A stretch of DNA of 64,000 bases from Cyanobacterium stanieri PCC 7202 (GTDB lineage: Bacteria; Cyanobacteriota; Cyanobacteriia; Cyanobacteriales; Cyanobacteriaceae). Every line of letters begins with the position of its first letter. Position 1 is the stretch's first letter. A program made the position numbers and the translations under genes. Of this stretch, positions 4,145-41,175 are shown piece by piece. The notes below the pieces were generated by a model. The model was not told where the DNA came from. It was given only the letters and a program-made list of their open reading frames with translations, and did not search any database. Location of the stretch: assembly GCA_000317655.1 (NCBI GenBank), contig CP003940.1:62001-126000 (forward strand). Direction: 5' to 3'.

Positions 4145-4261
4145 CAAACTTCACCCCTCACTTAACAATAAAAGATTTTTACTATGTTATAGCAGTTTGC
4201 CTTGTAGGGTGGGTAGGGAAAATGACAAAACAATCAACTGACACTGCCTCAAACCATTAAC

Positions 4262-4448
4262 TAACCTCAATTCGGGATAATAATTATGAGTATCGTTTAG
4301 TGTCAGCCTTGACGGTAAAAAGTTTACGGCGGTTTTTAAATTGCTAAATAACACCTAGAAATGGTGAAAAATATTCACTTCACTATTGCCCATTGCCTAT
4401 TCCCTATTGCCTGCCTTAACGAGAAAATGTTATCCCGAACTCAGGTTA
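4262..4448. mobile_element. MITE-like element, full-length copy 1 (187 bp)
   Basis: This is a non-coding element with imperfect terminal inverted repeats: TAACCTCAATTCGGGATAA at the left and the complement of TAACCTGAGTTCGGGATAA at the right. It is the reverse complement of the copy at 37913-38099: both are 187 bp, and I counted about seven substitutions by eye. A truncated copy lies at 30021-30138. The flanks read ATTAAC on both sides, a possible 6-bp target duplication, but the copy at 37913 does not show the same pattern. The interior holds four GGCAATA-type heptamers. It encodes no transposase, so movement would need one supplied in trans. Confidence 0.75.
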
Positions 4449-5557: not shown

Positions 5558-6985
5558 ATGTTTGAAAAATTGACCCCCCCCCAAGAAGGTACTAAAATTA
5601 AATTTGAAAATGGTAAACCCATAGTTCCTGATGATCCCATTATTCCCTTTATCCGTGGTGATGGTACAGGGGTAGATATTTGGCCAGCCTCTGAGAAAGT
5701 TATTGATGCGGCAGTGACTAAAGCCTACGGTGGTAAACGTAAAATCAACTGGTTTAAAATTTATGCAGGGGATGAAGCCTGTGAAAAATACGGCACTTTT
5801 CAGTATTTGCCCGAGGATACTTTAACCGCCATTAGGGAGTATGGTATCGCCATCAAAGGACCCCTTACAACCCCCGTAGGTGGTGGTATTCGCTCCCTAA
5901 ACGTTGCTTTGCGACAGATTTTTGATTTATATGCTTGTGTGCGCCCTTGTCGCTATTATCAGGGTACTCCTTCCCCCCACAAAAGCCCTGAAAAGTTGGA
6001 TGTCATCGTTTATCGGGAAAACACCGAGGATATTTATCTGGGTATCGAGTGGAAGGAAGGTTCGGAAATTGGTCAAAAATTAATTACCATCCTCAATGAT
6101 GATTTAATTCCCTCTACCCCTGAACACAAAAACAAAAAAATCCCCCTCGATGCGGGGATTGGTATTAAACCCATTAGCAAAACTGGCTCTCAACGTTTGG
6201 TGCGTCGTGCCATCCAAAATGCCCTCCGTTTACCCAAGCATAAGCAAATGGTTACTTTGGTGCATAAGGGTAATATTATGAAATACACTGAGGGGGCTTT
6301 CCGTGATTGGGGTTATGAGTTGGCAGTGACGGAATTTCGTGATGTGTGTGTAACCGAGAGAGAGTCTTGGATTTTGGGTAATAAGGAAGCAAATCCAGAT
6401 ATTTCCACCGAAGATAATGCCCGTAAAATTGATCCAGGTTATGATGGTCTAACCCCTGAGAAAAAGGAGGCTATTTGTGCTGAGGTGGAGGGCGTTTTGG
6501 CTTCTATCTGGGATACCCATGGTAATGGAAAATGGCAGGATAAGGTAATGGTTAATGATCGCATTGCCGATAGTATTTTCCAACAAATTCAAACCCGCCC
6601 TGATGAATATTCTATTTTAGCTACCATGAACCTGAATGGTGATTATCTTTCTGATGCGGCGGCTGCCATTGTGGGTGGTTTAGGTATGGGGCCAGGTGCC
6701 AATATTGGGGATAATTGTGCTATTTTTGAAGCTACCCATGGCACAGCCCCTAAACACGCTGGATTAGATAGAATCAATCCCGGTTCGGTAATTCTTTCTG
6801 GGGTGATGATGCTGGAGTTTATGGGATGGCAGGAAGCCGCTGATTTGATTCGTGATGGTATCAGCCGTGCGATCGCCTCTAGGCAGGTAACTTATGATTT
6901 AGCAAGGATGATGACTCCCCCTGTCGAACCTCCTTTAAAATGTTCTGAGTTTGCCCAAGCTATCATCGATAATTTTAACAGTTAA
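5558..6985 (+). CDS. icd: NADP-dependent isocitrate dehydrogenase
   Basis: This enzyme oxidises isocitrate to 2-oxoglutarate and CO2 with NADP. In cyanobacteria that product is the carbon skeleton for ammonium assimilation and the signal for NtcA and PII. Family hallmarks seen are [13 protein letters not shown] near the N-terminus, the substrate loop [52 protein letters not shown], and the cofactor segment [21 protein letters not shown]. Length (475 residues) matches the cyanobacterial form. I start at the ATG at 5558 (MFEKL); a TTG six codons upstream overlaps the GAGAAGG ribosome site. I looked for a perfect GTA-N8-TAC NtcA site upstream and found none. Confidence 0.96.
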
Positions 6986-7079: not shown

Positions 7080-7733
7080 ATGAAAATCTTAGTTGCAGGT
7101 GCCACCGGGCAAACAGGCAGAAGGATAGTTACAGAATTAGTAGAAAAAGGCATGGATGTTCGTGGCTTGGTGAGAGATGAAGCCAAGGCAAAGGACATTT
7201 TACCCGAGTCGGTGGAGTTGGTAGTGGGTGATGTTTTAAAACCCTCTACCCTCAAAAATGCCCTCCAAGGTTGTGATGTGGTAATTTGTGCCACGGGTGC
7301 TACCCCTAGCCTAGATTTTACGGCATTTTATAAGGTGGACTTGGAAGGGAGTAAAAATTTAATTGATGGTGCCAAGGAGGCAGGGGTAAATAAATTTATT
7401 TTTGTTACTTCCCTATGTGTATCTAAGTTTTTCCATCCCCTCAATTTGTTTGGTTTGGTGTTGTTTTGGAAAAAACAGGCGGAAAAATATTTAATCAATA
7501 GTGGTTTAAACTATACCATCGTGCGCCCTGGGGGTTTGAAAAATGAGGATAATTTATATCCCTTGGTGGTAAGGGGCGCTGATACTCTCTTTGAGGGTTC
7601 AATTCCCCGTAGAAAGGTAGCACAGGTATGCGTAGAGGCAATTTCTCGTCCCGAAACCGATGGCAAAATTTTGGAAATTGTTGCCCAGGAGGATGCCCCT
7701 AGCCAAGATTGGGATCAACTGTTGGCGGTTTAG
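7080..7733 (+). CDS. NAD(P)-binding atypical SDR family protein
   Basis: Rossmann-fold protein of the NmrA/atypical short-chain dehydrogenase group. It starts directly with the nucleotide-binding motif MKILVAGATGQTGRR, followed by GDVLKPSTLKNALQGCDVVICATGA and a FVTSLCVSKF segment at the position of the SDR active site. The usual YxxxK is not obvious: FWKKQAEKYLINSGLNYTIVRPG follows the pattern of atypical members such as Tic62 and plant At5g02240-like proteins. The substrate is unknown. The 3' end overlaps the convergent GTPase gene by 35 bp. Length 217 residues. Confidence 0.8.
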   Translation: MKILVAGATGQTGRRIVTELVEKGMDVRGLVRDEAKAKDILPESVELVVGDVLKPSTLKNALQGCDVVICATGATPSLDFTAFYKVDLEGSKNLIDGAKEAGVNKFIFVTSLCVSKFFHPLNLFGLVLFWKKQAEKYLINSGLNYTIVRPGGLKNEDNLYPLVVRGADTLFEGSIPRRKVAQVCVEAISRPETDGKILEIVAQEDAPSQDWDQLLAV

Positions 7734-9162
7734 TGGCTTTGAGTTTGGCTTTTAGTTCCCATTTGATGCGGTTTAAAATCGATGTTTCATCAAGGGAGTT
7801 GATAATGTTTTCCACCACTGCCAAGGGGCCATTTTCTCCCCATGAGGCACCGTTGGCAAGATATGCTTTACTTACTTGCCCGATGGTGTAGGTGGAAACC
7901 CCTGCTACCCCTGCTTGGGTGATGGCAACGGAAAAATACGGGGCAAGGCTTAATCCTCCTGTGACGGGGGTGGTTAAGCCTAATACTCCTTTGAGGGAAC
8001 TTAAGCCAAATGTAACTAATATGTCACTGGCTGTAATACCTCCCATGCTGAAGGCTATTTTTTTTAGTAGCCCTAATGCCCCTTTTTGGGTCATGGGGAT
8101 GTTGTAAAGGTGGGAAAGGCTCAAAATCATCGCCACGTCAATGACCGCCCCTGTGAACAAATCTAGGGCGGTTACGGGGTTAAGGGCGATCGCACTGGCT
8201 TTGGTCATGACAGCTTTTTGGATAATTTTCTCGGCGTTATCATCCCTTACATCTAGTTTTCTTTGCACCAATCGCTCGTTAATGTTACCCGTAAACAACA
8301 TGGTATTGAGGGCGACGAGGGATTTTCCTTCCCGATGGAGAATTTCGAGGATTTTTAATTGTAAATCTTCAATGTAGGGCATTCCCCGACGGCGGGTAAT
8401 TTTTAATTTCCCTTCCTCATCCCTAATGGCTTCAGAAACCAGAGGAGAAGCCGCCACCATCACAATCTCATCAGGGGATAATAACTCTCTTACCCTCTTA
8501 TCCCTAATTGTCTCATAGATTTCGGTGCGATCGGCGTCAGGATATTGATCAATTTTATTAAACACCAAAATCATCGGTTTACCCACCTCCCGCAACTGCG
8601 AAAGTGCTTGATACTCCACCCTTGTAATATCCCCCGACACCACAAACAAAATCAAATCCACCTGACTAGCCAAATCATGGGCTAAAGCCTCCCTAGTTTC
8701 CCCGTCAATCTCATCAATGCCAGGGGTATCAATCAATTGAATTTGAGCTTTTGCACTAGAATTAATCAACCGTTGCACATTGCCCAATCCATTACCGATA
8801 CTCTCTTGGTTAAATTGCCAATTAGTCTGACTTATATCCTGCGTAACCCCATGCAAAGGGCCTGTGATAAATATTTCTTCTCCTACCAAGGCATTTAAAA
8901 CGCTAGATTTTCCCCTGCCCACCATACCAAAGGCGGCAATTTGAATGACGGAGTTTTCTAGTTTTTCTAACATGGTTGTTAGTTGCTCAATATCAGTTTC
9001 TAAGCCTGTTTTTTCTTCGTCTTTCAGGTCAAGATTATCTAGTAAATTTTGTAATGATTTTTGGGCTTGTTTATAGTTAATTTCTCCCTGTAAATTAGCA
9101 AAGTCTAGGATAGTTGTTTCCCATTCTTCTTGATTCCATTGGTTAAATTCTTCTTCTGCCAT
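7699..9162 (-). CDS. Era/dynamin-type GTPase with C-terminal DUF697-like region
   Basis: The P-loop GTPase domain follows an acidic, coiled N-terminus (about 1-70). G1 is GMVGRGKSS (79-87), G3 is DTPGIDE (145-151) and G4 is NKID (202-205). After the G domain the protein has a hydrophobic C-terminal region (about 310-440) with KASAIALNPVTALDLFTGAVIDV, typical of DUF697 proteins thought to associate with membranes. The family is widespread in cyanobacteria and its role is unknown; membrane remodelling or transport is only inferred. The gene converges on the SDR gene, overlapping it by 35 bp. Confidence 0.8.
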   Translation of the reverse strand: MAEEEFNQWNQEEWETTILDFANLQGEINYKQAQKSLQNLLDNLDLKDEEKTGLETDIEQLTTMLEKLENSVIQIAAFGMVGRGKSSVLNALVGEEIFITGPLHGVTQDISQTNWQFNQESIGNGLGNVQRLINSSAKAQIQLIDTPGIDEIDGETREALAHDLASQVDLILFVVSGDITRVEYQALSQLREVGKPMILVFNKIDQYPDADRTEIYETIRDKRVRELLSPDEIVMVAASPLVSEAIRDEEGKLKITRRRGMPYIEDLQLKILEILHREGKSLVALNTMLFTGNINERLVQRKLDVRDDNAEKIIQKAVMTKASAIALNPVTALDLFTGAVIDVAMILSLSHLYNIPMTQKGALGLLKKIAFSMGGITASDILVTFGLSSLKGVLGLTTPVTGGLSLAPYFSVAITQAGVAGVSTYTIGQVSKAYLANGASWGENGPLAVVENIINSLDETSILNRIKWELKAKLKATKPPTVDPNLG

Positions 9163-13150: not shown

Positions 13151-15574
13151 ATGAAGATACATCAAGAGGATTTGTTATTCCTAGTTATGCCTAGTATTCA
13201 TCCACAATGTCAGGATTTGGCCTCCCAAGTAAATCAAATCATTGAACTGCTACAAAAAAATCCTGAACTCAGGGTACATCATGATACATCACCCCTCGAA
13301 ACTTCGCTACAAAAGGCGATCGCCCCTAAATTTGAAATAGTATTTGCAGGGGCATTTAGTGCAGGAAAATCCATGTTAATCAACGCTCTGCTCGAAAGAG
13401 AATTATTATATAGTGCCGAAGGACACGCCACAGGCACAGAATGTTATATCGAATATGCCCCTCCCCAAGAAGAAAGAGTCGTTTTAACCTTTCTCAGTGA
13501 GGCAGAAATCAGAAGTCAGGCTTCTATTCTGGCTCAAATTCTCAATATTGACCTAAAAGATGTAAACATCAATCAAACCCCCATTATGGAAGAATTAAAG
13601 GGTATCTGTGATGATCTTATCCGTCAGGAGGGGGGACATAATAAATCTGAGTTAGGGAAACAAGCCAATGCTCTGAAACTTCTACTCTCAGGATTTGAAG
13701 CCAACCGAGAAAAAATCCATACCACCCAAAACGCTACCTATTCCATGGAGCAATTTAATTTTACTAATCTTAGTGAGGCGGCTAGTTATGCTCGACGGGG
13801 AAAAAATTCGGCGGTGTTAAAACGTCTTGATTATTATTGTTATCATCCCCTCCTCGAGGATGGTAATGTTTTGGTGGACTTACCGGGGATTGATGCACCG
13901 ATTAAAAAGGATGCTGAGTTAGCCTATAGTAAAATTGAAGATCCTAACACTTCTGCCGTGGTGTGCGTCCTCAAACCTGCATCTGCAGGGGATTTGACCC
14001 AGGCAGAAACGGATTTATTAGAAAGGTTAAAAACAAATCCTGCCATCAGAGATCGAGTGTTTTATGTGTTCAATCGCATTGATCAAACTTGGTACAATGG
14101 ACAATTAAGACAGCGTTTAGATAATTTAATAAATACCGAATTTAACCATACAAATCGTATTTATAAAACCAGTGGTTTATTAGGTTTTTATGGTAGTCAA
14201 ATTAAGCATACTTCTTTTGATAATCGTTTTGGTTTAGACACTATTTTTGCTGAAACCATTAAGGGAGTAGAAGGGGAGGAAGAAACCCCTCAATTTATTA
14301 GTGAGTTTAATAATTACTGTGCTAATTCTGGTAAGTTAACCCGTACTGATTTCAGGGTTTCTGTCCACGGTTATGAAAGCCCTAATCGTAACTATGAAAG
14401 AATTTTAACTGAATGGGGAACCCCTTTGATTGAGCAGTTAATTACTGATAGTGGTATTAATATTTTTAAGGAAGAAATTAGTCGTTATTTAAAGGATGAA
14501 AAACAGCCAGAATTATATAAAAATTTGGCTAATGATTTACAATCTATTTGTATGCCTTTAAGGGAATCTTATCAAGATTTACAACGAGATTTAGATAGTG
14601 AACCTCAAGAAATTGAAGCCATGAAAAAGCAAAAGTTAGCTGATTTAAATAATCAGTTACAGGAAATTGGTCATGGTTATTATCAATATATAAATGATCA
14701 GGTAAATTTAATTATTACTAATGAAAATAAGGCTTTTAATCAAGATTTTCAACGGTTACAAAATCGTTTTGTCAACTACCTAGATGAGTTATTAAATAAT
14801 TTCTCCGTGGCGGATACTTACAGTTTGGCGGTGAAGTCTCATCCTCGCAATCAAACAGCACCCTTAATTGCTGTATTGGTGGAGGCTCTTTATCATATTG
14901 CCAACGCTTTAGAAGATTTGTTGAAGGACGGTTTAAAGGATTTGGTGGGCAATTTTATCCAAAATTTGACCTATGATGTGCGCCAACAGGATTGTTATCG
15001 TAATCTCTATCGTTTGTTAGGTGATGATGGCGGTATTGAAAAAGAGTTACAAGATTTACAGACAAAATTACTCTATGCTTTACAATCTGAAGCTAGTACA
15101 GAGTGCGATCGCTACGTACGGGAAAGCCCTCAATTCTACAGCGAAGGTACCTTTTCCATCTATCAATTTCGGGAAACCCTTAAACAAACATCTCAAGCCT
15201 ATGATTCCTCTGCCATGGTAGAATCTGAACCTGCCATCCGTCAACTATTACGCCTAGATTTTGAGCCAAAAATTGATCGCACCATACGCCAAGTTTTTCG
15301 TCAAACCATTAACCAAACCATTAAAACTAATTTGATACCCATGGCGAAGAAAATGGCGGATAGTATATTACAAAAATATGATGTGGCAAGGGAAAATCTC
15401 AAGCAAACCCTAGAACAAGAGGCAAAGGAAAAAATTGCCTACAATCAACAGCTAACTCAGGAATTAAATTCCGATGCCATAACCTACAACCAAGCTATTA
15501 CTAATATCAATAGTTGTTTGGAAGCCATGGATATTAATGATCATGACCTACCCTTAATTCATATTGAGCATTAA
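13151..15574 (+). CDS. Dynamin-like GTPase
   Basis: Large GTPase of the bacterial dynamin-like group. G1 is GAFSAGKSM (about 67-75), G3 is DLPGIDAP (243-250) and G4 is NRID (308-311). A long helical region (about 440-807) with heptad-like stretches near 465-500 and 745-790 would form the stalk. A hydrophobic segment near 575-600 (APLIAVLVEALYHIANALEDLL) may be a membrane paddle. Members of this family tubulate or fuse membranes; thylakoid or stress-related membrane maintenance is an inference. The start is uncertain between Met1 and Met13 (13187); neither has a clear ribosome site. The gene is convergent with hemL. Confidence 0.8.
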   Translation: MKIHQEDLLFLVMPSIHPQCQDLASQVNQIIELLQKNPELRVHHDTSPLETSLQKAIAPKFEIVFAGAFSAGKSMLINALLERELLYSAEGHATGTECYIEYAPPQEERVVLTFLSEAEIRSQASILAQILNIDLKDVNINQTPIMEELKGICDDLIRQEGGHNKSELGKQANALKLLLSGFEANREKIHTTQNATYSMEQFNFTNLSEAASYARRGKNSAVLKRLDYYCYHPLLEDGNVLVDLPGIDAPIKKDAELAYSKIEDPNTSAVVCVLKPASAGDLTQAETDLLERLKTNPAIRDRVFYVFNRIDQTWYNGQLRQRLDNLINTEFNHTNRIYKTSGLLGFYGSQIKHTSFDNRFGLDTIFAETIKGVEGEEETPQFISEFNNYCANSGKLTRTDFRVSVHGYESPNRNYERILTEWGTPLIEQLITDSGINIFKEEISRYLKDEKQPELYKNLANDLQSICMPLRESYQDLQRDLDSEPQEIEAMKKQKLADLNNQLQEIGHGYYQYINDQVNLIITNENKAFNQDFQRLQNRFVNYLDELLNNFSVADTYSLAVKSHPRNQTAPLIAVLVEALYHIANALEDLLKDGLKDLVGNFIQNLTYDVRQQDCYRNLYRLLGDDGGIEKELQDLQTKLLYALQSEASTECDRYVRESPQFYSEGTFSIYQFRETLKQTSQAYDSSAMVESEPAIRQLLRLDFEPKIDRTIRQVFRQTINQTIKTNLIPMAKKMADSILQKYDVARENLKQTLEQEAKEKIAYNQQLTQELNSDAITYNQAITNINSCLEAMDINDHDLPLIHIEH

Positions 15575-18965: not shown

Positions 18966-20132
18966 TTAATGAACTGAATCTATTATTTTTTCTAGAGTTG
19001 AACCCATACTGTCTATGCTATAGTGATTAATACAATGCTCTCTGATTTTTTTCCCTTTTTTTAAAGCTACATCATAATTTTCAAAAATTTCCCCAATAAC
19101 TTGTTTGATTTCTATAGGGGACTCAGGTTCGACTAAGTAACCTTGATCGTTTAAAATCTCAGGTATGTCACCCACTTTAGTAGCAATAATGGGTTTAGCC
19201 ATGGCCATAGCATCAGTTAATTTGATGGGAAATTGTGCTATAGCTGTTGTTGTTTTCCTTTGAGGTACAACAACAATATGAGCTGCACTTATTATCTCTG
19301 GCATGGAATCAAAAGGACAAGGAGGAAGATAAATAATAAATTCACTCCATTCGTTTTTCAAATTTTCCATATATCCATCTCCAATATTTCTACCTCCAAC
19401 AATAACCAGTTTTATATCAGTTTGATTTAATAATTTGATCGCCATCAATACATCTTCCAAGCCCTTATGAGGTCTAGGTGTACCTGGAAACATTAAAATT
19501 CTGTAATCCAACAATCCATATTTTTCTCTACTAAGTTGCGGATTAAATTTATCAGGATTAAACATCTCTGTATTTTTCCCGCTGGGAAGATAGGTACCAC
19601 CGAAATAGGATTGTAAAAAACGAGTATTAACCGTAATTGCATTAGCTTTGTCAACTAATTTTTCAGACCATTTGATATATAAAGGATGCCCTAAATCTCT
19701 CAATGCTCCATTTTTTTTTAATAAGTCGCCCATTAATTGTTTGATAGTTGGTTTATATTGCCAATGCTCTCCCCCAAACCAACTCATTTCCCAATCATCA
19801 ATATCTAACATCAAAGGTTTTCTCTTCAACAAACTTATAATGTAAGCAATGCCAAGACTTGTTGGCTTTGGTTTTATTGCATATATCAAATCTCCATCAA
19901 TTTCTTTCGCTAAATCTGATATGGGTTTCCATATTTGAGGAAATTTAGTGCCATGAGTATAGACTACTGGTAAACCAATCGGTGGCTGAGGATAAATGTT
20001 TTCCCCAAAAAGTAGACCAAATACTTTAACCTCATAACCCAAGTTTTGTAAGGTTGTAGCAATGATATAAACCCGAGTCATTCCCCCACCTGATAAATCA
20101 GGGGCTATTACTGAAATTTTTTTATTTTTCAT
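18966..20132 (-). CDS. Family 4 glycosyltransferase
   Basis: GT-B fold glycosyltransferase. The N-terminal domain begins VIAPDLSGGGMTRVYIIATTL, the acceptor-binding Rossmann half typical of GT4. The donor-binding half holds MFPGTPRPHKGLEDV and the terminal PIIATKVGDIPEIL, where an EX7E-like pattern binds the nucleotide sugar. Sugar specificity cannot be read. It is upstream of, and probably co-transcribed with, the ABC exporter. It is divergent from gloB across a 170-bp AT-rich region. Codon use is AT-rich, like the neighbouring glycan genes. Confidence 0.85.
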   Translation of the reverse strand: MKNKKISVIAPDLSGGGMTRVYIIATTLQNLGYEVKVFGLLFGENIYPQPPIGLPVVYTHGTKFPQIWKPISDLAKEIDGDLIYAIKPKPTSLGIAYIISLLKRKPLMLDIDDWEMSWFGGEHWQYKPTIKQLMGDLLKKNGALRDLGHPLYIKWSEKLVDKANAITVNTRFLQSYFGGTYLPSGKNTEMFNPDKFNPQLSREKYGLLDYRILMFPGTPRPHKGLEDVLMAIKLLNQTDIKLVIVGGRNIGDGYMENLKNEWSEFIIYLPPCPFDSMPEIISAAHIVVVPQRKTTTAIAQFPIKLTDAMAMAKPIIATKVGDIPEILNDQGYLVEPESPIEIKQVIGEIFENYDVALKKGKKIREHCINHYSIDSMGSTLEKIIDSVH

Positions 20133-20302
20133 TTAACCTATAAATATAAAATGTAAAGATATTACTCAAACCTATTATGTACTTGTTCACAATGATAAGG
20201 ATAAAAACAATTTAATGACTTGGATACATTGTTCATAGTCAAGATGATAATCAATATTCAGAAAGACTCAGCTATTAAATTTATTTATTAATAAAATTAT
20301 TT

Positions 20303-21085
20303 ATGGATATTATCAGGATTCCCGTATTATCGGATAATTATATCTTTGTTTTACACGATCGCACTTTAAACCAAGCAGCAGTAGTCGATCCAGCAGAAGC
20401 AAAGCCTGTTTTGGAATGCTTGAAGAATTTGGGAGCACAATTAGTCGCCATTTTTAATACTCACCATCATTTAGACCATGTGGGGGGTAACAAGGAATTG
20501 TTAACGGCCTTCCCTGATGCGGTGGTTTATGGTGGAGAGGAAGATCGAGGCAGAATTCCAAGACAACAGTTTTTTTTGAAAGAAGGAGACACTGTGGAGT
20601 TTGCTGGTAGAACAGGGGAGGTATTTTTTGTCCCAGGTCATACAAAAGCTCATATTGCCTACTATTTTGCCCCTAACGATCAAAATGATCAAAATGAGGT
20701 AGGAGAGCTATTTTGTGGGGATACGCTTTTTGCAGGGGGCTGTGGACGATTGTTTGAGGGAACTCCTGCCCAGATGGTAGACTCCTTGGGGAAATTACGT
20801 TCTCTTCCCGACCATACGAGGGTATGGTGTGCCCATGAATATACCTTGAGTAATTTAAAGTTTGCTATTACAGTAGATGGTAACAATTTAGACCTTATCA
20901 ATCGTTATCAAGAGGTTACAATGGCACGGGAAAATGATCAGCCTACCATTCCTTCCTCTATTGGGTTAGAAAAAAAGACTAATCCTTTTATGCGTTGGGA
21001 TAATAATCAAATCAAATCTGCCATGGGTTTTGAGGAGCCTAGTCGGGTGTTTGGTCGTTTAAGGGGTATGAAAGATAATTTTTAG
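20303..21085 (+). CDS. gloB: Hydroxyacylglutathione hydrolase (glyoxalase II)
   Basis: Zinc metallohydrolase that cleaves S-lactoylglutathione in methylglyoxal detoxification. The metal-binding HxHxDH motif is THHHLDHVGG (His54, His56, Asp58, His59). Further ligands lie in VPGHTKAHI, FCGDTLFAGGCGRLFEG and AHEYTLSNLKFA, and the C-terminal substrate-binding helices are present (RWDN, SRVFGRLRGMKD). Length 260 residues is normal, so this copy is intact. Its last 255 bp (20830-21084) are duplicated with three silent changes at 23046-23300, beyond the adjacent membrane-protein gene. This suggests the present 3' end was rebuilt during an insertion. Confidence 0.95.
   Translation: MDIIRIPVLSDNYIFVLHDRTLNQAAVVDPAEAKPVLECLKNLGAQLVAIFNTHHHLDHVGGNKELLTAFPDAVVYGGEEDRGRIPRQQFFLKEGDTVEFAGRTGEVFFVPGHTKAHIAYYFAPNDQNDQNEVGELFCGDTLFAGGCGRLFEGTPAQMVDSLGKLRSLPDHTRVWCAHEYTLSNLKFAITVDGNNLDLINRYQEVTMARENDQPTIPSSIGLEKKTNPFMRWDNNQIKSAMGFEEPSRVFGRLRGMKDNF
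20830..21084 (+). repeat. 255-bp direct repeat, copy A (in gloB)
   Basis: This block is identical to 23046-23300 except for three G/A differences, all at third codon positions and all synonymous. The two copies bracket 1,961 bp holding one gene. Both copies end at the same base inside the stop codon. Confidence 0.95.
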
Positions 21086-21207
21086 CTTAACTTTAAGTTC
21101 AAGAGAAGCTGAAAATGTTATCATCCTGCATAAAAAATAATAAAATAACCACAATCAAAACTGAAGCTATAATTAAGTTTTATTGTTAGGCTAATGAGAA
21201 CAAAGTT

Positions 21208-22983
21208 ATGATTCATGGTAAGCAATATGCCTTAATTATAAATTTAATTATAGTTATATTTTTTGTAATACTAACCATTGTTATAAACTCCCAGATGATA
21301 CGTTTTGGGTTAAATGGACTAGGAGATGTTAGATGGCATATCGGTTGGGTTCAAAATTTTTCTGCACAATTACAAGAGGGGATTTTATATCCCCGTTGGT
21401 TAGCAAATACAAACTTTGGTTACGGTAGTCCCACATTTGTTTTTTATCCTCCCTTAGTTTATTATTTTGGTTCTATATTGCGAATAGTAGGTTTTAACAG
21501 TCAGCAAACTATGACTTTATTATTTTCCTTACCCATTCTTTTAAGCGGTATAAGTTTTTATGTTTATGGTCAAAGTAAATGGAATAGCATAAGTGCGACT
21601 GCAGGAGCTTTATCTTATATGCTTTGTCCTTTCATTATTCATTCCGTTAATTTCGGAAATTTGTCTACTCTCTGGACAATTCCTCTTTTACCTCTAGGAA
21701 TGTTTTTTACGGATAAATGTTTGGAGAATTCCAAATGGGGATTGTTGTTAACCGTATTTGTCTCTCTGATTGCACTCACCCATACACCGACTTTATTAAT
21801 ATATACAATCGCATGGTTGTTATATATGATTTATCAAACTCAAGAAAAACCTGTTATTCAAGTTATTATTACGATCATTTTTGCTTTTGCTGGATTAGGA
21901 TTAGCCTCATTTTATCTATTACCGGCAATCCTAGAACAAAAATACGTAAATATTGACTATCAATCAGGTTCTATGGGAGGTTTCTCAACGCTGCCTTGGA
22001 AAGATTTATTTATGGTTGATGGACCATACTCTATCGGAGCTAAAAATGTTATTGCAACTATTTCCATCGCAATAATCAGTATAATCTATACAGAAAAGAG
22101 AAAACCATATTTGAAACACATTATGGGATGGATTATTTTTATGGTTATCGTTTTATTTATGGTCAGTAATTTATCAGAAATAATTTGGTATTCCAGTCAT
22201 ATTTTGTTGAAAGTACAGAGAAGTGGAAGAATAATGGGGTTATTTTACTTTGCCCAAGCTGTACTATTCAGTTGGCTAATAAAATCTTTGTTAGGATTAA
22301 AAATCAAGCAACAGTTAATTCCCATAACGATTTTAACCACTATTTTATTTGTAAATTTTCAATATGGTTATAATCTTACCCGTCAGTCACCAGGACTTAA
22401 TGCGCAAACACAAGGAGTAGTATCTAGTAGAGAATGGATGGAGATAGCACTTTTTGAACCGCTATCAGAGAAACTTCTTGATGTTCCAGAATTTAGACCA
22501 CAAATAATTTCCCCTTATGAATTTAATCCTGATGTAAGAGAATCGACTCCAGTGATTGACGGTATTCCAACTCCCAATATTATTGGAGGTAATCCCTATT
22601 TCCCCGTACCGAAACTGAATAAACCAAAAATGGAAGTTTTACAAGGAGAAGGCGATATTTTCATTGAGAATTGGTCAAGCTATGTTCGAAATTTTAGAAT
22701 TAATGTTAATCAACAATCAAGAATAAAAATCAGGACTTATTACTATCCTGCTTGGACGTTGAAAATTAATGATCAAATGCATGATATTGACATTTTAGAA
22801 GATGGTACAATCGGCTTTTCTTTAGACCAAGGAATATATCAAGGAACATTAAACTACAATATGACACCAGCATTTGCTTGGGGAATTTTACTTAGCATTT
22901 TAAGTATTATTTTTCTTCTCGTATTGTATATCATATTCAATAATTATGATTCTGTAATGTTTTTCTGGAAAACAATCTTTTGA
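21208..22983 (+). CDS. Multi-spanning membrane protein, PTPS-related domain family
   Basis: This 591-residue integral membrane protein has roughly ten or more hydrophobic segments. The opening luminal motif GDVRWHIGWVQNFSAQL, then LYPRWLANTNFGYGSPTFVFY, fits the 6-pyruvoyl-tetrahydropterin-synthase-related membrane family, whose members look like GT-C glycosyltransferases. The acidic D-x-R/H motif after the first helix is the GT-C-like feature. A periplasmic beta-rich domain (about 410-560) and a last membrane helix complete it. Function is not established; a lipid-linked sugar transferase is plausible given the nearby GT4 and exporter. It is flanked on both sides by gloB 3' sequence, so it is the cargo of an apparent insertion. 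Confidence 0.7.
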   Translation: MIHGKQYALIINLIIVIFFVILTIVINSQMIRFGLNGLGDVRWHIGWVQNFSAQLQEGILYPRWLANTNFGYGSPTFVFYPPLVYYFGSILRIVGFNSQQTMTLLFSLPILLSGISFYVYGQSKWNSISATAGALSYMLCPFIIHSVNFGNLSTLWTIPLLPLGMFFTDKCLENSKWGLLLTVFVSLIALTHTPTLLIYTIAWLLYMIYQTQEKPVIQVIITIIFAFAGLGLASFYLLPAILEQKYVNIDYQSGSMGGFSTLPWKDLFMVDGPYSIGAKNVIATISIAIISIIYTEKRKPYLKHIMGWIIFMVIVLFMVSNLSEIIWYSSHILLKVQRSGRIMGLFYFAQAVLFSWLIKSLLGLKIKQQLIPITILTTILFVNFQYGYNLTRQSPGLNAQTQGVVSSREWMEIALFEPLSEKLLDVPEFRPQIISPYEFNPDVRESTPVIDGIPTPNIIGGNPYFPVPKLNKPKMEVLQGEGDIFIENWSSYVRNFRINVNQQSRIKIRTYYYPAWTLKINDQMHDIDILEDGTIGFSLDQGIYQGTLNYNMTPAFAWGILLSILSIIFLLVLYIIFNNYDSVMFFWKTIF

Positions 22984-23045
22984 CTGTTATGATTTTTACA
23001 CGTTCTATCAAAATTCTCACTAGTTTTTTTTATTGCCCTTATAAT

Positions 23046-23301
23046 TGCCCATGAATATACCTTGAGTAATTTAAAATTTGCTATTACAGTAGATGGTAAC
23101 AATTTAGACCTTATCAATCGTTATCAAGAGGTTACAATGGCACGGGAAAATGATCAGCCTACCATTCCTTCCTCTATTGGGTTAGAAAAAAAGACTAATC
23201 CTTTTATGCGTTGGGATAATAATCAAATCAAATCTGCCATGGGTTTTGAGGAACCTAGTCGGGTATTTGGTCGTTTAAGGGGTATGAAAGATAATTTTTA
23301 A
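23046..23301 (+). pseudogene. Duplicated 3' fragment of gloB
   Basis: The fragment encodes the last 84 or so residues of GloB (from AHEYTLSNLKFA to GMKDNF) and ends in its own TAA. It lacks the metal-binding N-terminal domain. No ATG is in frame upstream; the frame is open only from 22993, and the first usable codon would be a TTG at 23062. It is therefore a remnant, not a functional hydrolase. The matched region begins abruptly at 23046 and stops at 23300. Confidence 0.9.
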
Positions 23302-23461
23302 ATAATTATTACTCGTTTTGTGGTCTAATTTCTTATTATTTAATTGATCGTTTTTAGCAGATCCGATTAATTTTTATCTATCATATTGATGAGCTAAAAA
23401 GAGATAGAGCGTCATGTTATCTAACTAAATTATTTTTTATATTTTTTTGTGGGGAGTCTTA

Positions 23462-24859
23462 ATGTCTGTAAGTAAAGTAAATTACCGTCCCAAAAAAGGG
23501 GGACACAAAAAACCACAGGCTCCAAAAAAGGGGTCTAGGATCAATTGGGTTTTAATGGGTTTTGGTTTAAGTGCGATCGCCTCTTTATCCACTGCCATTG
23601 GTGCTTTGTTAGCCTTATCGGTTACTCAAACTCCTCTTAACCAAGTGAGATTAACCCCAGAAGAAGAAGCAGTTTTTAACCAAGAAGAAACCTTAAGTTA
23701 CAGTAGTTTAAATGTACCGAACCTCCGAAGACCAATCAATATTTTAGTCTTGGGAGTCAAAGTTTTAAGCACCGACATCCCCGACTACCCAGAAACTAAT
23801 TTAGGTTATCATCCCCTTGTCAACTCCTTCCAAGGGCGATCGGATAGTATGATGTTACTACGCCTCGACCCACAAAAAAATGAAGTAGTCGTTTTATCCA
23901 TTCCTCGAGACACCCGAACTAGAGTGCGAGGGGTGGGTTTAACCAAAATTAATGATGCCAATGCCTATGGTGGGGCTTCCCTCGCCGCAGAATCAGTCAG
24001 TGATCTTCTCAATGGTGTGAAAATAGATCGCTATGTTCGCATCAACGTTCAAGGAGTAGAGAAGTTAATTGATGCCCTTGGTGGGGTTGATTTTTATGTT
24101 CCCAAGGATATGAGGTATACTGATCACAGCCAACGTCTCTATATCAATTTACAAGAAGGGCAACAACACCTAGATGGGGAAAGAGCATTACAACTTTTAC
24201 GCTTCCGTTACGATGCCTATGGAGATGTAGGTAGGGTACAAAGACAACAAGCTCTGATCAGGGCATTAATGGAACAAGCCCTAAGTCCGAGGACGGTGTT
24301 GCGTATTCCTGAAATTCTTAGTATCATCCGTTCCCATATTGACACCAACTTGGGTACAAATGAACTAATTGCCATGGCTGCTTTTATGGGACAAAAAAGT
24401 AGATCTGATTTTCAGATGGTAATGTTACCGGGAGACTTCAATCAACCAGAGGAAGGGGAATTAAGTTATTGGTTGCCCAATCAGCGAGGTATTTCTCGTA
24501 TCAGTCAAGATATTTTTGGTGTCCAACCAGATTATTTTTATACCAGTAATACCAATAGCGAACCCATCGCCCCTAGTCGTGTTAGAGTCGCTATACAAAC
24601 CCGTGACGCTGATAGGGAAATAGCCCAAAGTGTAGCGGATGAGTTAATCAACTCAGGTTATAACCGAATTTTTATCAGCAACACTCCCTATAATGAACCC
24701 ATCAGTAAAACTAGAATTGTCGCCCAAGGGGGAGACTCTTCCATGGCAGCAAGGGTGAGAGCCACTTTGGGTGTGGGAGAGGTGTTAGTGGAAAGCACAG
24801 GGGTTTTAGGCACAGACATCACCATTCAAGTGGGTAGTGATTGGAGTATGGAGGATTAA
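23462..24859 (+). CDS. LytR-CpsA-Psr family cell-wall glycopolymer transferase
   Basis: LCP proteins attach glycopolymers from undecaprenyl-pyrophosphate carriers to peptidoglycan or other acceptors outside the membrane. A cytoplasmic basic N-terminus (KKGGHKKPQ) precedes one membrane helix (about 35-60). The LCP core follows with RSDSMMLLRLDP, LSIPRDTRTRVRGVGLTKINDANAYGG, LIDALGGVDFYVPKDM and LRFRYDAYGDVGRVQRQQ, which hold the conserved Arg and Asp residues. A C-terminal LytR_C-like domain (about 360-465) is present. The ATG at 23462 has a GGGGAG ribosome site, so it is preferred to the TTG at 23447. Before the insertion upstream, it was probably the direct neighbour of gloB. Confidence 0.9.
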   Translation: MSVSKVNYRPKKGGHKKPQAPKKGSRINWVLMGFGLSAIASLSTAIGALLALSVTQTPLNQVRLTPEEEAVFNQEETLSYSSLNVPNLRRPINILVLGVKVLSTDIPDYPETNLGYHPLVNSFQGRSDSMMLLRLDPQKNEVVVLSIPRDTRTRVRGVGLTKINDANAYGGASLAAESVSDLLNGVKIDRYVRINVQGVEKLIDALGGVDFYVPKDMRYTDHSQRLYINLQEGQQHLDGERALQLLRFRYDAYGDVGRVQRQQALIRALMEQALSPRTVLRIPEILSIIRSHIDTNLGTNELIAMAAFMGQKSRSDFQMVMLPGDFNQPEEGELSYWLPNQRGISRISQDIFGVQPDYFYTSNTNSEPIAPSRVRVAIQTRDADREIAQSVADELINSGYNRIFISNTPYNEPISKTRIVAQGGDSSMAARVRATLGVGEVLVESTGVLGTDITIQVGSDWSMED

Positions 24860-29787: not shown

Positions 29788-29861
29788 GGGACTGTAGCTC
29801 AGCTGGTTAGAGTGCTTGCCTGTCACGCAAGATGTCGCGGGTTCGAGCCCCGTCAGTCCCG
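29788..29861 (+). tRNA. tRNA-Asp (GTC)
   Basis: This is a 74-nt tRNA. The acceptor arms GGGACTG and CAGTCCC pair perfectly with discriminator G, as expected for Asp. The D-arm AGCTCAGCTGGTTAGAG is canonical, the anticodon loop CTGTCAC has anticodon GTC within the stem TTGC/GCAA, and the T-arm GCGGGTTCGAGCCCCGT is canonical. The 3' CCA is not encoded. Confidence 0.97.
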
Positions 29862-30020
29862 TTTTAAACACCCTAAGTTACTATAAAACTTTTGGTTTCT
29901 TTTATCTCTTCAGGATTTTTTTAAGATAAGCGTTGGTCTATTTTTGATTAGATTAGTATGTAGGAAAAATAGAACTATCTTTAATCTCTCAATAAATTTT
30001 TTTGTGGATTTATCTATAAA

Positions 30021-30138
30021 TAACCTGAGTTCGGGATAACATTTTCTAGTTAAGGCAGGCAATAGGGAATAGGCAATGGGCAATAGTGAAGTGAATCTTT
30101 TTCACCATTTCTAGGTGTTATTTAGCAATTTAAAAACC
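30021..30138. mobile_element. Truncated MITE-like element
   Basis: The sequence starts with TAACCTGAGTTCGGGATAAC and matches the first 118 bp of the copy at 37913 almost base for base, through TTTAGCAATTTAAAAACC. It then breaks off at the stem of the ATP synthase terminator. The right half and right terminal repeat are missing, apart from a possible GAGGTTA at 30164-30170. Confidence 0.75.
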
Positions 30139-37912: not shown

Positions 37913-38099
37913 TAACCTGAGTTCGGGATAACATTTTCTAGTTAAGGTAGGCAATAGGGAATAGGCAATGGGCAATAGTGAAGTGAATATTTTTCACCAT
38001 TTCTAGGTGTTATTTAGCAATTTGAAAACCGCCGTAAACTTTTCACCGTCAAGGCTGATACTAAACGATACTCATAATTATTCTCCCAAATTGAGGTTA
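37913..38099. mobile_element. MITE-like element, full-length copy 2 (187 bp)
   Basis: The ends are TAACCTGAGTTCGGGATAA and the complement of TAACCTCAATTTGGGAGAA. It is in inverse orientation relative to the copy at 4262-4448 and the same length. Its interior carries GGCAATA/GGGAATA/GGCAATG/GGCAATA heptamers. GATAA-like bases occur at both borders (37911 and 38100), so the target-site duplication is unclear. Confidence 0.75.
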
Positions 38100-38490
38100 G
38101 ATAATAATTTATGAGAAAGAGTGATGGAATTACATTTTTTCTGGGTAATATGGGTTTGATGATCGCATTTTATGTAATCAAAAACATTTTTTTTTAAAGA
38201 CTGTTATATTATCAAAACTTATTTTTATACTAACATTAATATTTTTTTAATCTTTTGATTGGCAAAATATATATATTTTTTGCAGAGAAAAGTATCATAT
38301 TTTATTGTAAACAATATGTATATTGAAAAGGTATTATAATTGTTAAAATTTTATAATAGTTAAGAATAAGAATAATTTTTGTTTTAAAAAGGTTTTAAGA
38401 ATGTTCAGTCTTGAATAAAAAATGCAAATTAGAAAAAATGAGTTAGGATAAAATAGAATCTTTTTATCTCTTCGATAATTCTCAAATACC
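38100..38490. other. AT-rich upstream region of hybrid kinase
   Basis: This 391-bp region between the MITE and the kinase gene is very AT-rich. It includes a 28-codon plus-strand frame at 38111-38197 (MRKSDGITFFLGNMG...) with one hydrophobic stretch but no ribosome-binding site. No clear promoter boxes or RNA structure were recognised. Confidence 0.4.
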
Positions 38491-41175
38491 ATGATAGATC
38501 CTCAAGCCTTTACCGAATTATACCTAAGAGAAAATACGCAAAAAAATCAGATATTATCAGAGTATCAAAAACTAATCCTAGATAACATCATTGATGGAGT
38601 AGTTTTATTTAAAGAAGATCGCTACATATACGTAAATCAGGCATTTACTGAAATTTCAGGCTATGGAGAAGAAGAATTATTAGGAAAAAGATGGCAAGAC
38701 TTTTATCCAGCAAAAGATGCTCAAAAAATAGAAAAAGAGATTCTTGGTATTTGTAAAGAAAACAAATATTGGAGAGGAGAAACAATTTCTTATCATAAAA
38801 ATGGACAAAAAGTTTGGAAACAAATGTCCTTATCCTTGATTGAAGATGGAATTTTAATAGGAATTTGTCGAGATATTAGCGAGGGAAAAAAAACCCAAAC
38901 TATGGTCAAAGCCCAAGAATCTGCCATGAGGGCTTTATATCAAGTGACATCATCATCTAGTTTAACCTTTGCAGAAAAATTAGAAGGTATCTTTAACCTT
39001 GGTAGGACATTTTTTGACTTAGAAATGGGGGTGTTAACCCGTGGATTAGACACATCTATTCAAATAGTCAAATTTCAGGGGGAAAAAAGAAATGGTGAAG
39101 TAGTTCAACTGCCTGTATATATAAACAATGATCAATCATTATGCTTTATTTGTTTGCAAAAACAAGAACCTTTAGTCATTGAATCCTTAGCCAAATCTAT
39201 TTATAAAGAACATCCAGGGCATACTCTTTGGAATATCCAAAGCTATATTGGGGCAAAGATTGAAGTATCTGGGAAAACCTACGGTACTTTATGTTTTTTT
39301 TCGTTTGAGGAAAAAAATAGTGATACCATCACCGAAAATTCTCAACAGTTATTAAAATTAATGGCTCAATGGATTGGTTATGAAATTGAGCGCCAAGAGT
39401 CGCAAAAGTTACTGGAGCAAAAATTTCAGCAGGAAGTTTTATTAAAAACCATTGTTCAATCCATTCGTCAAACTATTGATTATGAAGAGTTATTCCAAAG
39501 GGCGGCTGAAACTATTGGAGAAACTTTCAACTTAGATCGTTGTCATCTTTTTACCTATGATACAACCAAAAAACCAGCCATGACTCCTTTGGGAGAATAT
39601 TTGAGTGAGGGTATTTTATCTATGAGTCATGTAAATGTTGATCCTCATAATATTCGTAATCTTCACCTGGAAAAAATATTAGAACAAGATGAGGCGGTGG
39701 TAACTAATAATGTTTTTGAAGATCCTCTCTTGGAAAATATGCGTCATGTGTGTGTACAAGTTGATTTAAAGTCGATGATGGCGGTGCGCACTTCTTATTT
39801 AGGTCAAGCTAACGGTATTATTTGTTTACATACTTGTAAAGAGTACAGAAATTGGACGGATTCGGAGATAGAATTAATTGAAAATGTTGCTTCTCAATTT
39901 GGCATTGCGATCGCACAGGCGAAGTTATTGCAACAGGAAAAAGAACAGAAAGAACAATTAGAGTTAAAAAATAAAGCCTTAGAGGAAGCGAGGAAGGAGG
40001 CAGAAAGTGCTAATAGGGCAAAAAGTGCTTTCTTAGCTACCATGAGTCATGAAATTCGTACACCGATGAATGGGATTATGGGTATGGCGGATTTGTTGTG
40101 CCATACTCCTTTAAATAAAGAGCAAAAAGATTATGTCAAAACCATTAATCAAAGTGGCAGTTTATTACTGACAATTATTAATGATATTTTAGATTTAGCA
40201 AAAATTGAAGCGGGTAAAATTGAGTTAGAAAAAAAACCTTTTAATCTTCATCAATGTATCGAGGAAGTTTTAAAATTGATGAGGGCTAATGCTATCAATA
40301 AAAATATCAAATTAATTTATATTAAAAATCATTTAATTCCTGCCGATTTTATCGGTGATATTAATCGTCTCAAGCAAATTATTCTCAATTTAGTGAGTAA
40401 CGGCATAAAATTTACTGAAAAAGGGGAGGTACAGGTAAAAGCTGATGCTCGTCTTTGTCCTGATGGTTTTCATGTCATTCAAATTGCCATAAAAGATACA
40501 GGCATCGGTATTCCTACAGATAAGTGCGATCGCCTCTTTAAACCATTTTCCCAAGTAGATGGCACCAATACTCGTAAATATGGCGGTACAGGATTAGGAT
40601 TAGTAATTAGTCAAAAAATAGCCCATTTAATGGGAGGAAAAATTACTTTTAAGACAGAAATAGCTCAAGGCTCTACCTTTTATATTACCATAAAATTACT
40701 AGCTCTTTCCTCAGAAGAAATAAGTGAAAGAAACCTGTTAAATAGTAATGAAAATATAGAAAATAAAACCTTAAAAATATCCTCCTTACCCATCAAAATT
40801 TTATTGGTAGAAGATAATCCCGTTAACTACAAAGTAGCCCGTTTAATGTTTCAAAAACTAGGCTATACAGGAGAAAAATTAAACATTGCCCATGACGGTT
40901 TACAAGCCCTCGAATTAATTAATCAAAACCAATATGACATCGTCTTTATGGACTTACAAATGCCTAACCTAGATGGTTTGAATACTACCATCAAAATACG
41001 GGCATTAGGTAAAAAAATAAAACAACCTTGGATAGTCGCCATGACAGCTTCCGCCTTGGCAGAAGATCGAAAAAACTGCTTTAATGTAGGAATGAATGAT
41101 TATGTCAGTAAGCCGATTCGCTCTGGTACCATTCAACAAGCATTGCAAAGGTTTTCTAATAGTTTGATTCTCTAA
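38491..41175 (+). CDS. Hybrid sensor histidine kinase (PAS-GAF-GAF-HisKA-HATPase-REC)
   Basis: This is a soluble 894-residue kinase. A PAS domain (about 25-135, with GVVLFKEDRYIYVNQAFTEISGYGEEELLG) is followed by two GAF-like domains (about 155-300 and 325-480), a short coiled coil, and a HisKA domain with His520 in SHEIRTPMNG. An HATPase domain follows (N box NLVSNGIKFT, G1 DTGIGI, G2 GGTGLGL), then a receiver with Asp821 in FMDLQMPNLDG and Lys in SKP. All catalytic residues are present. The second GAF domain could bind a bilin, but its candidate Cys (around RHVC) is unproven. Its partner is unknown. The next gene is only 9 bp downstream. Confidence 0.92.
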   Translation: MIDPQAFTELYLRENTQKNQILSEYQKLILDNIIDGVVLFKEDRYIYVNQAFTEISGYGEEELLGKRWQDFYPAKDAQKIEKEILGICKENKYWRGETISYHKNGQKVWKQMSLSLIEDGILIGICRDISEGKKTQTMVKAQESAMRALYQVTSSSSLTFAEKLEGIFNLGRTFFDLEMGVLTRGLDTSIQIVKFQGEKRNGEVVQLPVYINNDQSLCFICLQKQEPLVIESLAKSIYKEHPGHTLWNIQSYIGAKIEVSGKTYGTLCFFSFEEKNSDTITENSQQLLKLMAQWIGYEIERQESQKLLEQKFQQEVLLKTIVQSIRQTIDYEELFQRAAETIGETFNLDRCHLFTYDTTKKPAMTPLGEYLSEGILSMSHVNVDPHNIRNLHLEKILEQDEAVVTNNVFEDPLLENMRHVCVQVDLKSMMAVRTSYLGQANGIICLHTCKEYRNWTDSEIELIENVASQFGIAIAQAKLLQQEKEQKEQLELKNKALEEARKEAESANRAKSAFLATMSHEIRTPMNGIMGMADLLCHTPLNKEQKDYVKTINQSGSLLLTIINDILDLAKIEAGKIELEKKPFNLHQCIEEVLKLMRANAINKNIKLIYIKNHLIPADFIGDINRLKQIILNLVSNGIKFTEKGEVQVKADARLCPDGFHVIQIAIKDTGIGIPTDKCDRLFKPFSQVDGTNTRKYGGTGLGLVISQKIAHLMGGKITFKTEIAQGSTFYITIKLLALSSEEISERNLLNSNENIENKTLKISSLPIKILLVEDNPVNYKVARLMFQKLGYTGEKLNIAHDGLQALELINQNQYDIVFMDLQMPNLDGLNTTIKIRALGKKIKQPWIVAMTASALAEDRKNCFNVGMNDYVSKPIRSGTIQQALQRFSNSLIL

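Follow-up and report, generated by a model that had tools for sequence, protein, structure and literature searches.

A gene for a predicted GT-C-fold membrane protein inserted between gloB and a second gloB 3' end in Cyanobacterium stanieri PCC 7202

Genes and repeats at the gloB locus

The window analysed here is a stretch of 64,000 nucleotides from Cyanobacterium stanieri PCC 7202 (contig CP003940.1, positions 62,001 to 126,000), and our subject is its gloB gene, the 3' end of which is present twice, on the two sides of a gene for a membrane protein. Intact gloB (20303-21085) codes for a hydroxyacylglutathione hydrolase of 260 amino acids with the Pfam domains Lactamase_B and HAGH_C, and its product is full-length as judged by NCBIfam TIGR03413 (321.5 bits, cut-off 200.8). 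It is followed by a 122-bp spacer (21086-21207), by the gene of a PTPS_related/YfhO-like membrane protein of 591 amino acids (21208-22983), called the cargo gene below, by 62 bp forming the end of the cargo (22984-23045), by the second gloB 3' end (23046-23300) and by a gene of the LytR-CpsA-Psr (LCP) family (23447-24859; PF03816), all on the forward strand.

The two copies of the repeat, 20830-21084 (copy 1, the 3' end of intact gloB) and 23046-23300 (copy 2), are 255 bp long, stand in direct orientation with their starts 2,216 bp apart, and are 98.8% identical with 3 mismatches (self-match E = 1.4e-125). A first-pass annotation made from the letters alone had already noticed the last 255 bp of gloB on both sides of the membrane gene, and this was borne out. 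According to the coordinates the first base of the repeat is the third position of codon 176 (of 260), and the repeat covers the HAGH_C domain assigned by Pfam to residues 179-260. Copy 2 is a stub of 84 codons and a stop, 5' of the LCP gene; it lacks the catalytic half, as had been stated, and the further statement that it has no start is nearly, not strictly, correct, since reading in frame from the preceding stop one first meets a start at 23062, a TTG within the repeat, from which a product of 79 amino acids could potentially be made. The flanks 3' of the stop codon in the two copies are mutually unrelated. When the whole genome (one contig of 3,163,381 bases) was searched with the repeat, just two matches were found, both at the gloB locus, so that the duplication does not stem from a dispersed repeat.

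The joint between the cargo end and the truncated gloB end, at 23045/23046, is non-homologous: the similarity of the preceding 62 bp to gloB is not above that of shuffled sequence, 49 of 300 shuffles scoring equally high. A TTGCCC word lies 12 bp 5' of this junction and is not judgeable without the donor. The cargo gene is intact (591 codons) and is the sole open reading frame of at least 80 amino acids within the unit, in agreement with the earlier remark that no integrase or transposase is visible. A second copy of the spacer was looked for in the same genome and not found. As regards a possible RNA or tRNA target, no Rfam family reached its gathering threshold in 19800-24000, and the only tRNA gene in the window lies at 29788. 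Scans for promoters and terminators gave 17 and 3, respectively, where shuffled sequence gave 15.4 and 1.9, and were not used.

Native junction and nature of the cargo gene

In order to define the native side of the locus, 15 gloB loci from relatives were compared, those of four congeners (G001-G004, of which G001 is 63% complete) and of 11 other genomes. In six of the 15 loci, namely in all four congeners and in two of the 11 others (G005 and G013), the LCP gene directly follows gloB without any insert, so the empty site that the first-pass annotation had proposed to look for does exist; in the remaining nine there was no LCP gene at E <= 1e-8 within the stretch fetched, and none of the 15 has the cargo gene beside gloB as in the window. 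The insertion is therefore derived in the lineage of the window, because gloB and the LCP gene adjoin without an insert in 4/4 congeners. From copy 2 to the end of the LCP gene, the sequence can be aligned without a break to the native junction in G001, G003 and G004, and in two pieces, the gloB end and the LCP gene, to that of G002. Copy 2 is therefore the original 3' end, left displaced downstream as had been suggested; together with the LCP side it is the native junction, and copy 1 with the membrane gene is the inserted unit. Alignment with the relatives also revealed that the DNA after copy 1 is non-native immediately past the stop codon, the spacer being unlike the native region downstream of gloB, and copy 1 itself is probably the incoming allele. 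The target sequence, single in the relatives, is thus duplicated around foreign DNA in the window; recipient DNA was not deleted, and everything from the gloB end through the LCP gene was retained.

A displaced gloB 3' fragment was found in the genome of the window only, among 388 genomes of the class, of which 375 have HAGH_C, 13 have none and three have two matches. The gloB 3' end was consequently rejected as a recurrent insertion site. In G422 the two HAGH_C matches are overlapping pieces of one gene; in G207 two matches of equal score (C1:97507-97752 and C1:409727-409972) lie 312 kb apart, each in an open frame of 320 amino acids.

The cargo protein matches PTPS_related (PF10131) with 41.8 bits (cut-off 26.4), and among 28 aligned proteins, the cargo included, 26 match PF10131 and 11 match YfhO (E <= 0.001). 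PTPS_related has been placed in the GT-C clan of glycosyltransferases (PMC7801869). By sequence, no solved structure was found at E <= 10 with the cargo protein, and an alignment-based search gave one weak match of 38 residues (E 0.18), which was not believed. The structure predicted from the 28-sequence alignment (predicted local distance difference test 89, predicted template modelling score 0.89) resembles yeast STT3 (8agc_A; Z 19.6, 360 residues aligned, root-mean-square deviation (rmsd) 3.8; best Foldseek E 1.9e-4), AftD (Z 17.5, 486 residues, rmsd 5.4), PglB (Z 16.3) and ArnT (Z 15.2), and Pmt4 also lies within Z 15-19.6; the structural alignment covered Foldseek's own candidates, so that families missing from it carry no meaning, and residues past 471 were barely covered. 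The cargo is thus predicted to have a GT-C fold. Judging from its family and from the gene neighbourhoods described below, it is probably an enzyme that takes a sugar from a polyprenyl-phosphate carrier and transfers it to a polymer of the envelope, outside the membrane.

The distribution of the cargo gene is patchy: it is present in 7 of 60 near genomes, 38 of 388 of the class and 77 of 388 of the order (profile), counts which include its own genome, and no homologue was detected in the four congeners at E <= 0.001 (with G001 63% complete). The genome of the window has one gene of this type and no second copy of the cargo DNA. The nearest homologue, in Leptothoe kymatousa, is 48% identical, and the two proteins form a pair in a quick 24-protein tree (Shimodaira-Hasegawa-like approximate likelihood ratio test (SH-aLRT) 99), Leptothoe being outside the order and the pairing at odds with the species relationships; four distant proteins were left out of this tree, and the branch of the window is long and flagged for composition. 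Distribution and tree placement, taken together with the empty site, show that the cargo is foreign in origin. Plasmids contained no near match to 20303-23446, and a plasmid protein search gave five of 72,556 records, in pieces covering 12-36% of the cargo query at 27-47% identity; none of 50,697 phage protein records matched. Close cargo relatives in named genomes were sought as well: single-protein patterns gave five stretches, none confirmed, and the alignment-based search gave 47 confirmed loci. On a contig titled Candidatus Gracilibacteria SU_1_2 (L170) there is a PTPS-type protein which groups with Okeania (SH-aLRT 99), possibly because of a mis-binned cyanobacterial contig or a transfer.

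Thirty-eight loci were examined for their gene neighbourhoods, 31 of which had the gene at E <= 1e-20. Among these 31, a GT2 glycosyltransferase gene is found in 12 and a TVP38-type (VTT domain) gene in nine, and four of the loci have the tight order GT2-PTPS-TVP38. In multi-component transmembrane glycosylation of the CsbB-GtcA-YfhO type an enzyme of GT-A fold charges a lipid carrier, which then serves a GT-C enzyme (PMC8035078), and the neighbourhoods would fit this scheme: a GT-C fold is predicted for the cargo, and GT2 genes are common near its homologues. For the cyanobacterium of the window this comparison covers the cargo gene, not its partner genes or an acceptor.

Origin of the duplication

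Positions 31, 208 and 220 of the repeat and the stop codon distinguish the two copies (AAG/AAA, GAG/GAA, GTG/GTA and TAG/TAA, copy 1/copy 2). All four differing codons, the stop codon included, are synonymous, an outcome with p = 0.0016 under random changes and p = 0.012 if only transitions are allowed. At site 208 copy 1 stands alone against all six relatives aligned, and at sites 31 and 220 the congeners are mixed; the stop codon of copy 1 is shared with G003 and G004 and that of copy 2 with G001 and G002, copy 2 being here unlike the two nearest congeners. Because site 208 changed in copy 1 and the stop codon of copy 2 differs from the nearest congeners, the changes are likely split between the copies, that is, not all of them would have occurred in the functional copy and at least one probably occurred in the dead one. 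The simplest reading, which we favour and which is not proven, is that the two 3' ends come from separate genomes and acquired their differences there, each as part of a working gene; since all differences are synonymous, a displaced allele is favoured over the decay of a simple duplicate.

We therefore consider the following course of events probable, with moderate confidence. Incoming DNA from the same or a very close species would have carried a gloB 3' end (or more) followed by the GT-C glycosyltransferase gene. One of its ends would have entered by homologous recombination in gloB, and a non-homologous joint would have linked the other, just past the cargo, to codon 176 of the resident gloB, whether directly or through a circle of about 2.2 kb that entered by a single crossover. 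The product would be an intact gloB with the incoming 3' end, the co-oriented cargo behind it and the old 3' end as a stub before the LCP gene. Looping out of the 2,216-bp unit between the direct repeats, as raised in the first-pass annotation, would be plausible. The donor, the crossover route and the enzymatic role of the cargo are what we infer in this scheme. A laboratory precedent for the circular route comes from a test for homology-facilitated illegitimate recombination in E. coli: molecules that had been trimmed, closed again into circles and taken up by single crossover gave rise to duplications of the lacZ end of 109-950 bp (14 clones sequenced, duplication product of the polymerase chain reaction in 56/60; PMC3240628). 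The likeness lies in the partial duplication of a gene end around incoming DNA; the difference is that a selected laboratory plasmid was used there, and the window records a natural event. Homology-facilitated illegitimate recombination usually deletes recipient DNA (PMC3240628); because recipient DNA was duplicated here and none was deleted, the event was not filed as a classical case of it.

This departure from the usual outcome is one of several points which weigh against the proposed entry through gloB. There are just four differences, and their synonymy would be expected under any model if all of them arose in the functional copy; the replacement 3' end suggested by the first-pass annotation is favoured by the four synonymous codons, although so few changes are no proof. 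A donor in which the cargo follows gloB did not turn up, and the closest homologue of the cargo is 48% identical. No crossover breakpoint on the gloB side is visible in the alignments, and microhomology at the non-homologous joint cannot be assessed without the donor. Finally, at a locus of similar anatomy in the family of the window (L048, see below) four codon differences are synonymous and six are not, amino-acid replacements among them, three of the six coming from a difference of one codon in length at the end. The duplicated segment is closer to two congeners than the rest of gloB (G003, 91.4% and 82.4%, Fisher p = 0.0008; G004, 87.1% and 80.3%, p = 0.02); identity between G003 and G004 also rises in this segment, from 83.2 to 86.7% (p = 0.25), and these values were not relied on.

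The main rival, which predicts the same map, is a one-step insertion with long target duplication: staggered breaks would have taken up foreign DNA by non-homologous joining at both ends, so that 255 bp of the resident gloB were duplicated, the copies being identical at birth and acquiring their four differences later. Such a pattern was reported in Helicobacter (Nobusato et al. 2000, as summarised in PMC1643837) and is mentioned also in PMC3031569. There, too, a foreign gene lies between direct repeats of a target which is single in the relatives, and the insert of the window likewise shows no transposase or integrase; the 98.8% identity of the copies would suit this origin. However, the four codon differences are synonymous without exception, at least one of them having probably arisen in the dead copy, and the foreign side of copy 1 starts at the stop codon, which is natural for the junction of a donor gene. 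The Helicobacter cases often involve restriction-modification genes, and not a glycosyltransferase gene, and the repeat of the window is the 3' end of a gene whose purely synonymous differences hint at different source genomes. We regard this one-step duplication as possible and clearly less probable than entry of an incoming gloB 3' end.

The first-pass annotation named as the alternative a tandem duplication of gloB whose second copy then lost its 5' part, and the cargo would have had to arrive as well; the direct orientation of the two copies agrees with such a history. It has become improbable, given the foreign DNA directly past the stop of copy 1, the lack of gloB similarity before copy 2 and the greater number of exact breakpoints it would need. 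Somewhat more unlikely still is site-specific integration of a mobile element at the gloB 3' end, with its integrase lost or acting in trans. The anatomy recalls prophage e14 in icd of E. coli, where a housekeeping gene receives its 3' end (163 bp) from the incoming DNA and the old one stays on the far side as a pseudo-3' end (PMC6379469), but e14 is a site-specific element of 15,204 bp, and the window holds a one-gene unit of 2.2 kb with no visible recombinase. In this unit no integrase is seen, there being no open reading frame of at least 80 amino acids except the cargo; the genome has no second cargo copy, the displaced gloB fragment is confined to one of the 388 genomes of the class, and in the similar locus L179 the target is a different gene. 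An ancestral arrangement, in which an old neighbourhood of cargo and gloB was lost in the relatives, is very improbable: PTPS-type genes do occur near gloB in Baaleninema and Geitlerinema BBD, but upstream of it behind a GT2 gene and not downstream, and the site is empty in 4/4 congeners and two further genomes. An assembly artefact or misjoin is equally improbable, the genome being one contig and the copies having distinguishing differences and distinct flanks.

Comparable loci and biological meaning

Besides the cases above, the immunity-gene arrays of the Vibrio cholerae type VI secretion system resemble the locus in that a module is proposed to enter via an upstream homologous anchor, shifting the old gene downstream (PMC5361080); whole genes are left over there, in contrast to the truncated stub in the window. 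We take the gloB locus as an informative example of a pattern already known; it does not represent a novel type of genetic element. The observation of the first-pass annotation and most of its interpretation stand. No paper reporting it was found by title or by the start of the abstract.

Direct repeats spaced 1.5-12 kb apart, with a length of at least 80 bp and an identity of at least 88%, were surveyed in 76 loci (1,024,176 bases, with 56 PTPS-type genes in 52 of them; six duplicates dropped, short loci not included). Being built around PTPS genes, the survey cannot show enrichment. It gave six pairs, four of which span a PTPS-type gene, those of the window and of L161 among them. L179 is a clean match to the window: in this locus, from an uncultured cyanobacterium, the last ~95 bp of a Gfo/Idh/MocA gene (5599-5693) are repeated at 7673-7767 after a PTPS-type gene distant from the cargo, in a unit of 2,074 bp; 9/10 differing codons are synonymous, stop codon included, and the repeat has at least two matches in its genome (40 of 121 first-look candidates scored). 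By our own arithmetic, made after the fact, the chance that a random pair of this spacing spans a PTPS gene is about 0.02. In L048 the 3' end of GT2-GtrA (4163-4318) is repeated at 13937-14092, within an open frame of 61 codons, around 9.6 kb of glycosylation genes with a distant PTPS-type gene; the congeners of G013 do not settle which side is native.

The two pairs that span no PTPS gene are a tandem PTPS pair (L172) and the MITE-like (miniature inverted-repeat transposable element) repeat of the window itself. This dispersed repeat of 193 bp lies at 4256-4448, 37913-38105 and 30017-30138 and has at least 49 matches in its own genome (40 of 250 first-look candidates scored), ten of them near full length at 94-100%. 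An inverted repeat pair of about 190 bp and 68% identity was also observed at 40045-40236 and 44583-44774.

With looser limits, nine matches spanning the PTPS gene were obtained in 30 loci with such a gene: three in L161, including one of 111 bp (5749-5859 and 8904-9014), two in L172 (which has the tandem PTPS pair), and one each in L164 (62 bp, intergenic), L177 (63 bp, 82.5%), L185 (45 bp, 80%) and L179. Counted in this way, a stub that appears to derive from a host gene is found in L179 only. By eye, the 111-bp repeats of L161 look like PTPS 3'-end remnants flanking a PTPS gene and a TnpB (OrfB_IS605) gene. Five further long and 65 short loci (at least 50 bp, 85%) added one spanning repeat, in L216, the same 111-bp, 90.09% match as in L161. 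There is a modest hint that the pattern recurs around the PTPS gene family. Tentatively, and with considerable doubt, single PTPS-type GT-C genes might be a recurrent cargo of a recombinase-free route which anchors in the 3' end of a host gene and leaves a displaced, synonymously diverged stub, as in the window, in L179 and possibly in L048.

Upstream of gloB and divergent from it stands a GT4 glycosyltransferase gene (18966-20132, reverse strand), whose product shares 50-52% identity with the counterparts from the four congeners, which share 70-88% among themselves; HepA, gloB and the LCP gene, unlike GT4, show ordinary distances to the congeners. We read this as replacement in situ by a foreign homologue. 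The nearest GT4 proteins (58-59%) belong to another family, the tree does not settle the placement, and the GT4 clade of the congeners also has a long stem. The GT4 replacement is associated with the cargo insertion and might, or might not, be part of the same event; gene orders and orientations differ. In Baaleninema simplex PCC 7105 (L160, 3535-11836) a PTPS-type gene lies between gloB and GT4-HepA, in an operon-like GT2-PTPS-TVP38 order followed by GT4-HepA and divergent from gloB; in Geitlerinema BBD (L159, 3115-7746) an operon-like GT2-PTPS-TVP38 order is likewise divergent from gloB. These are the two of the 31 loci with PTPS near gloB, and they are each other's nearest in the tree and so represent one lineage.

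It should be emphasized that this cyanobacterial locus bears the clean scar left by acquiring a single gene, the relatives still having the empty site, and that envelope glycosyltransferase genes appear to have been exchanged on both sides of the conserved metabolic gene gloB. Our results suggest that displaced 3' stubs with synonymous-only differences can tell an incoming replacement allele apart from a simple duplication of the target. If PTPS-type genes are indeed a recurrent cargo, such 3'-end stubs could record past swaps of envelope-glycosylation genes.

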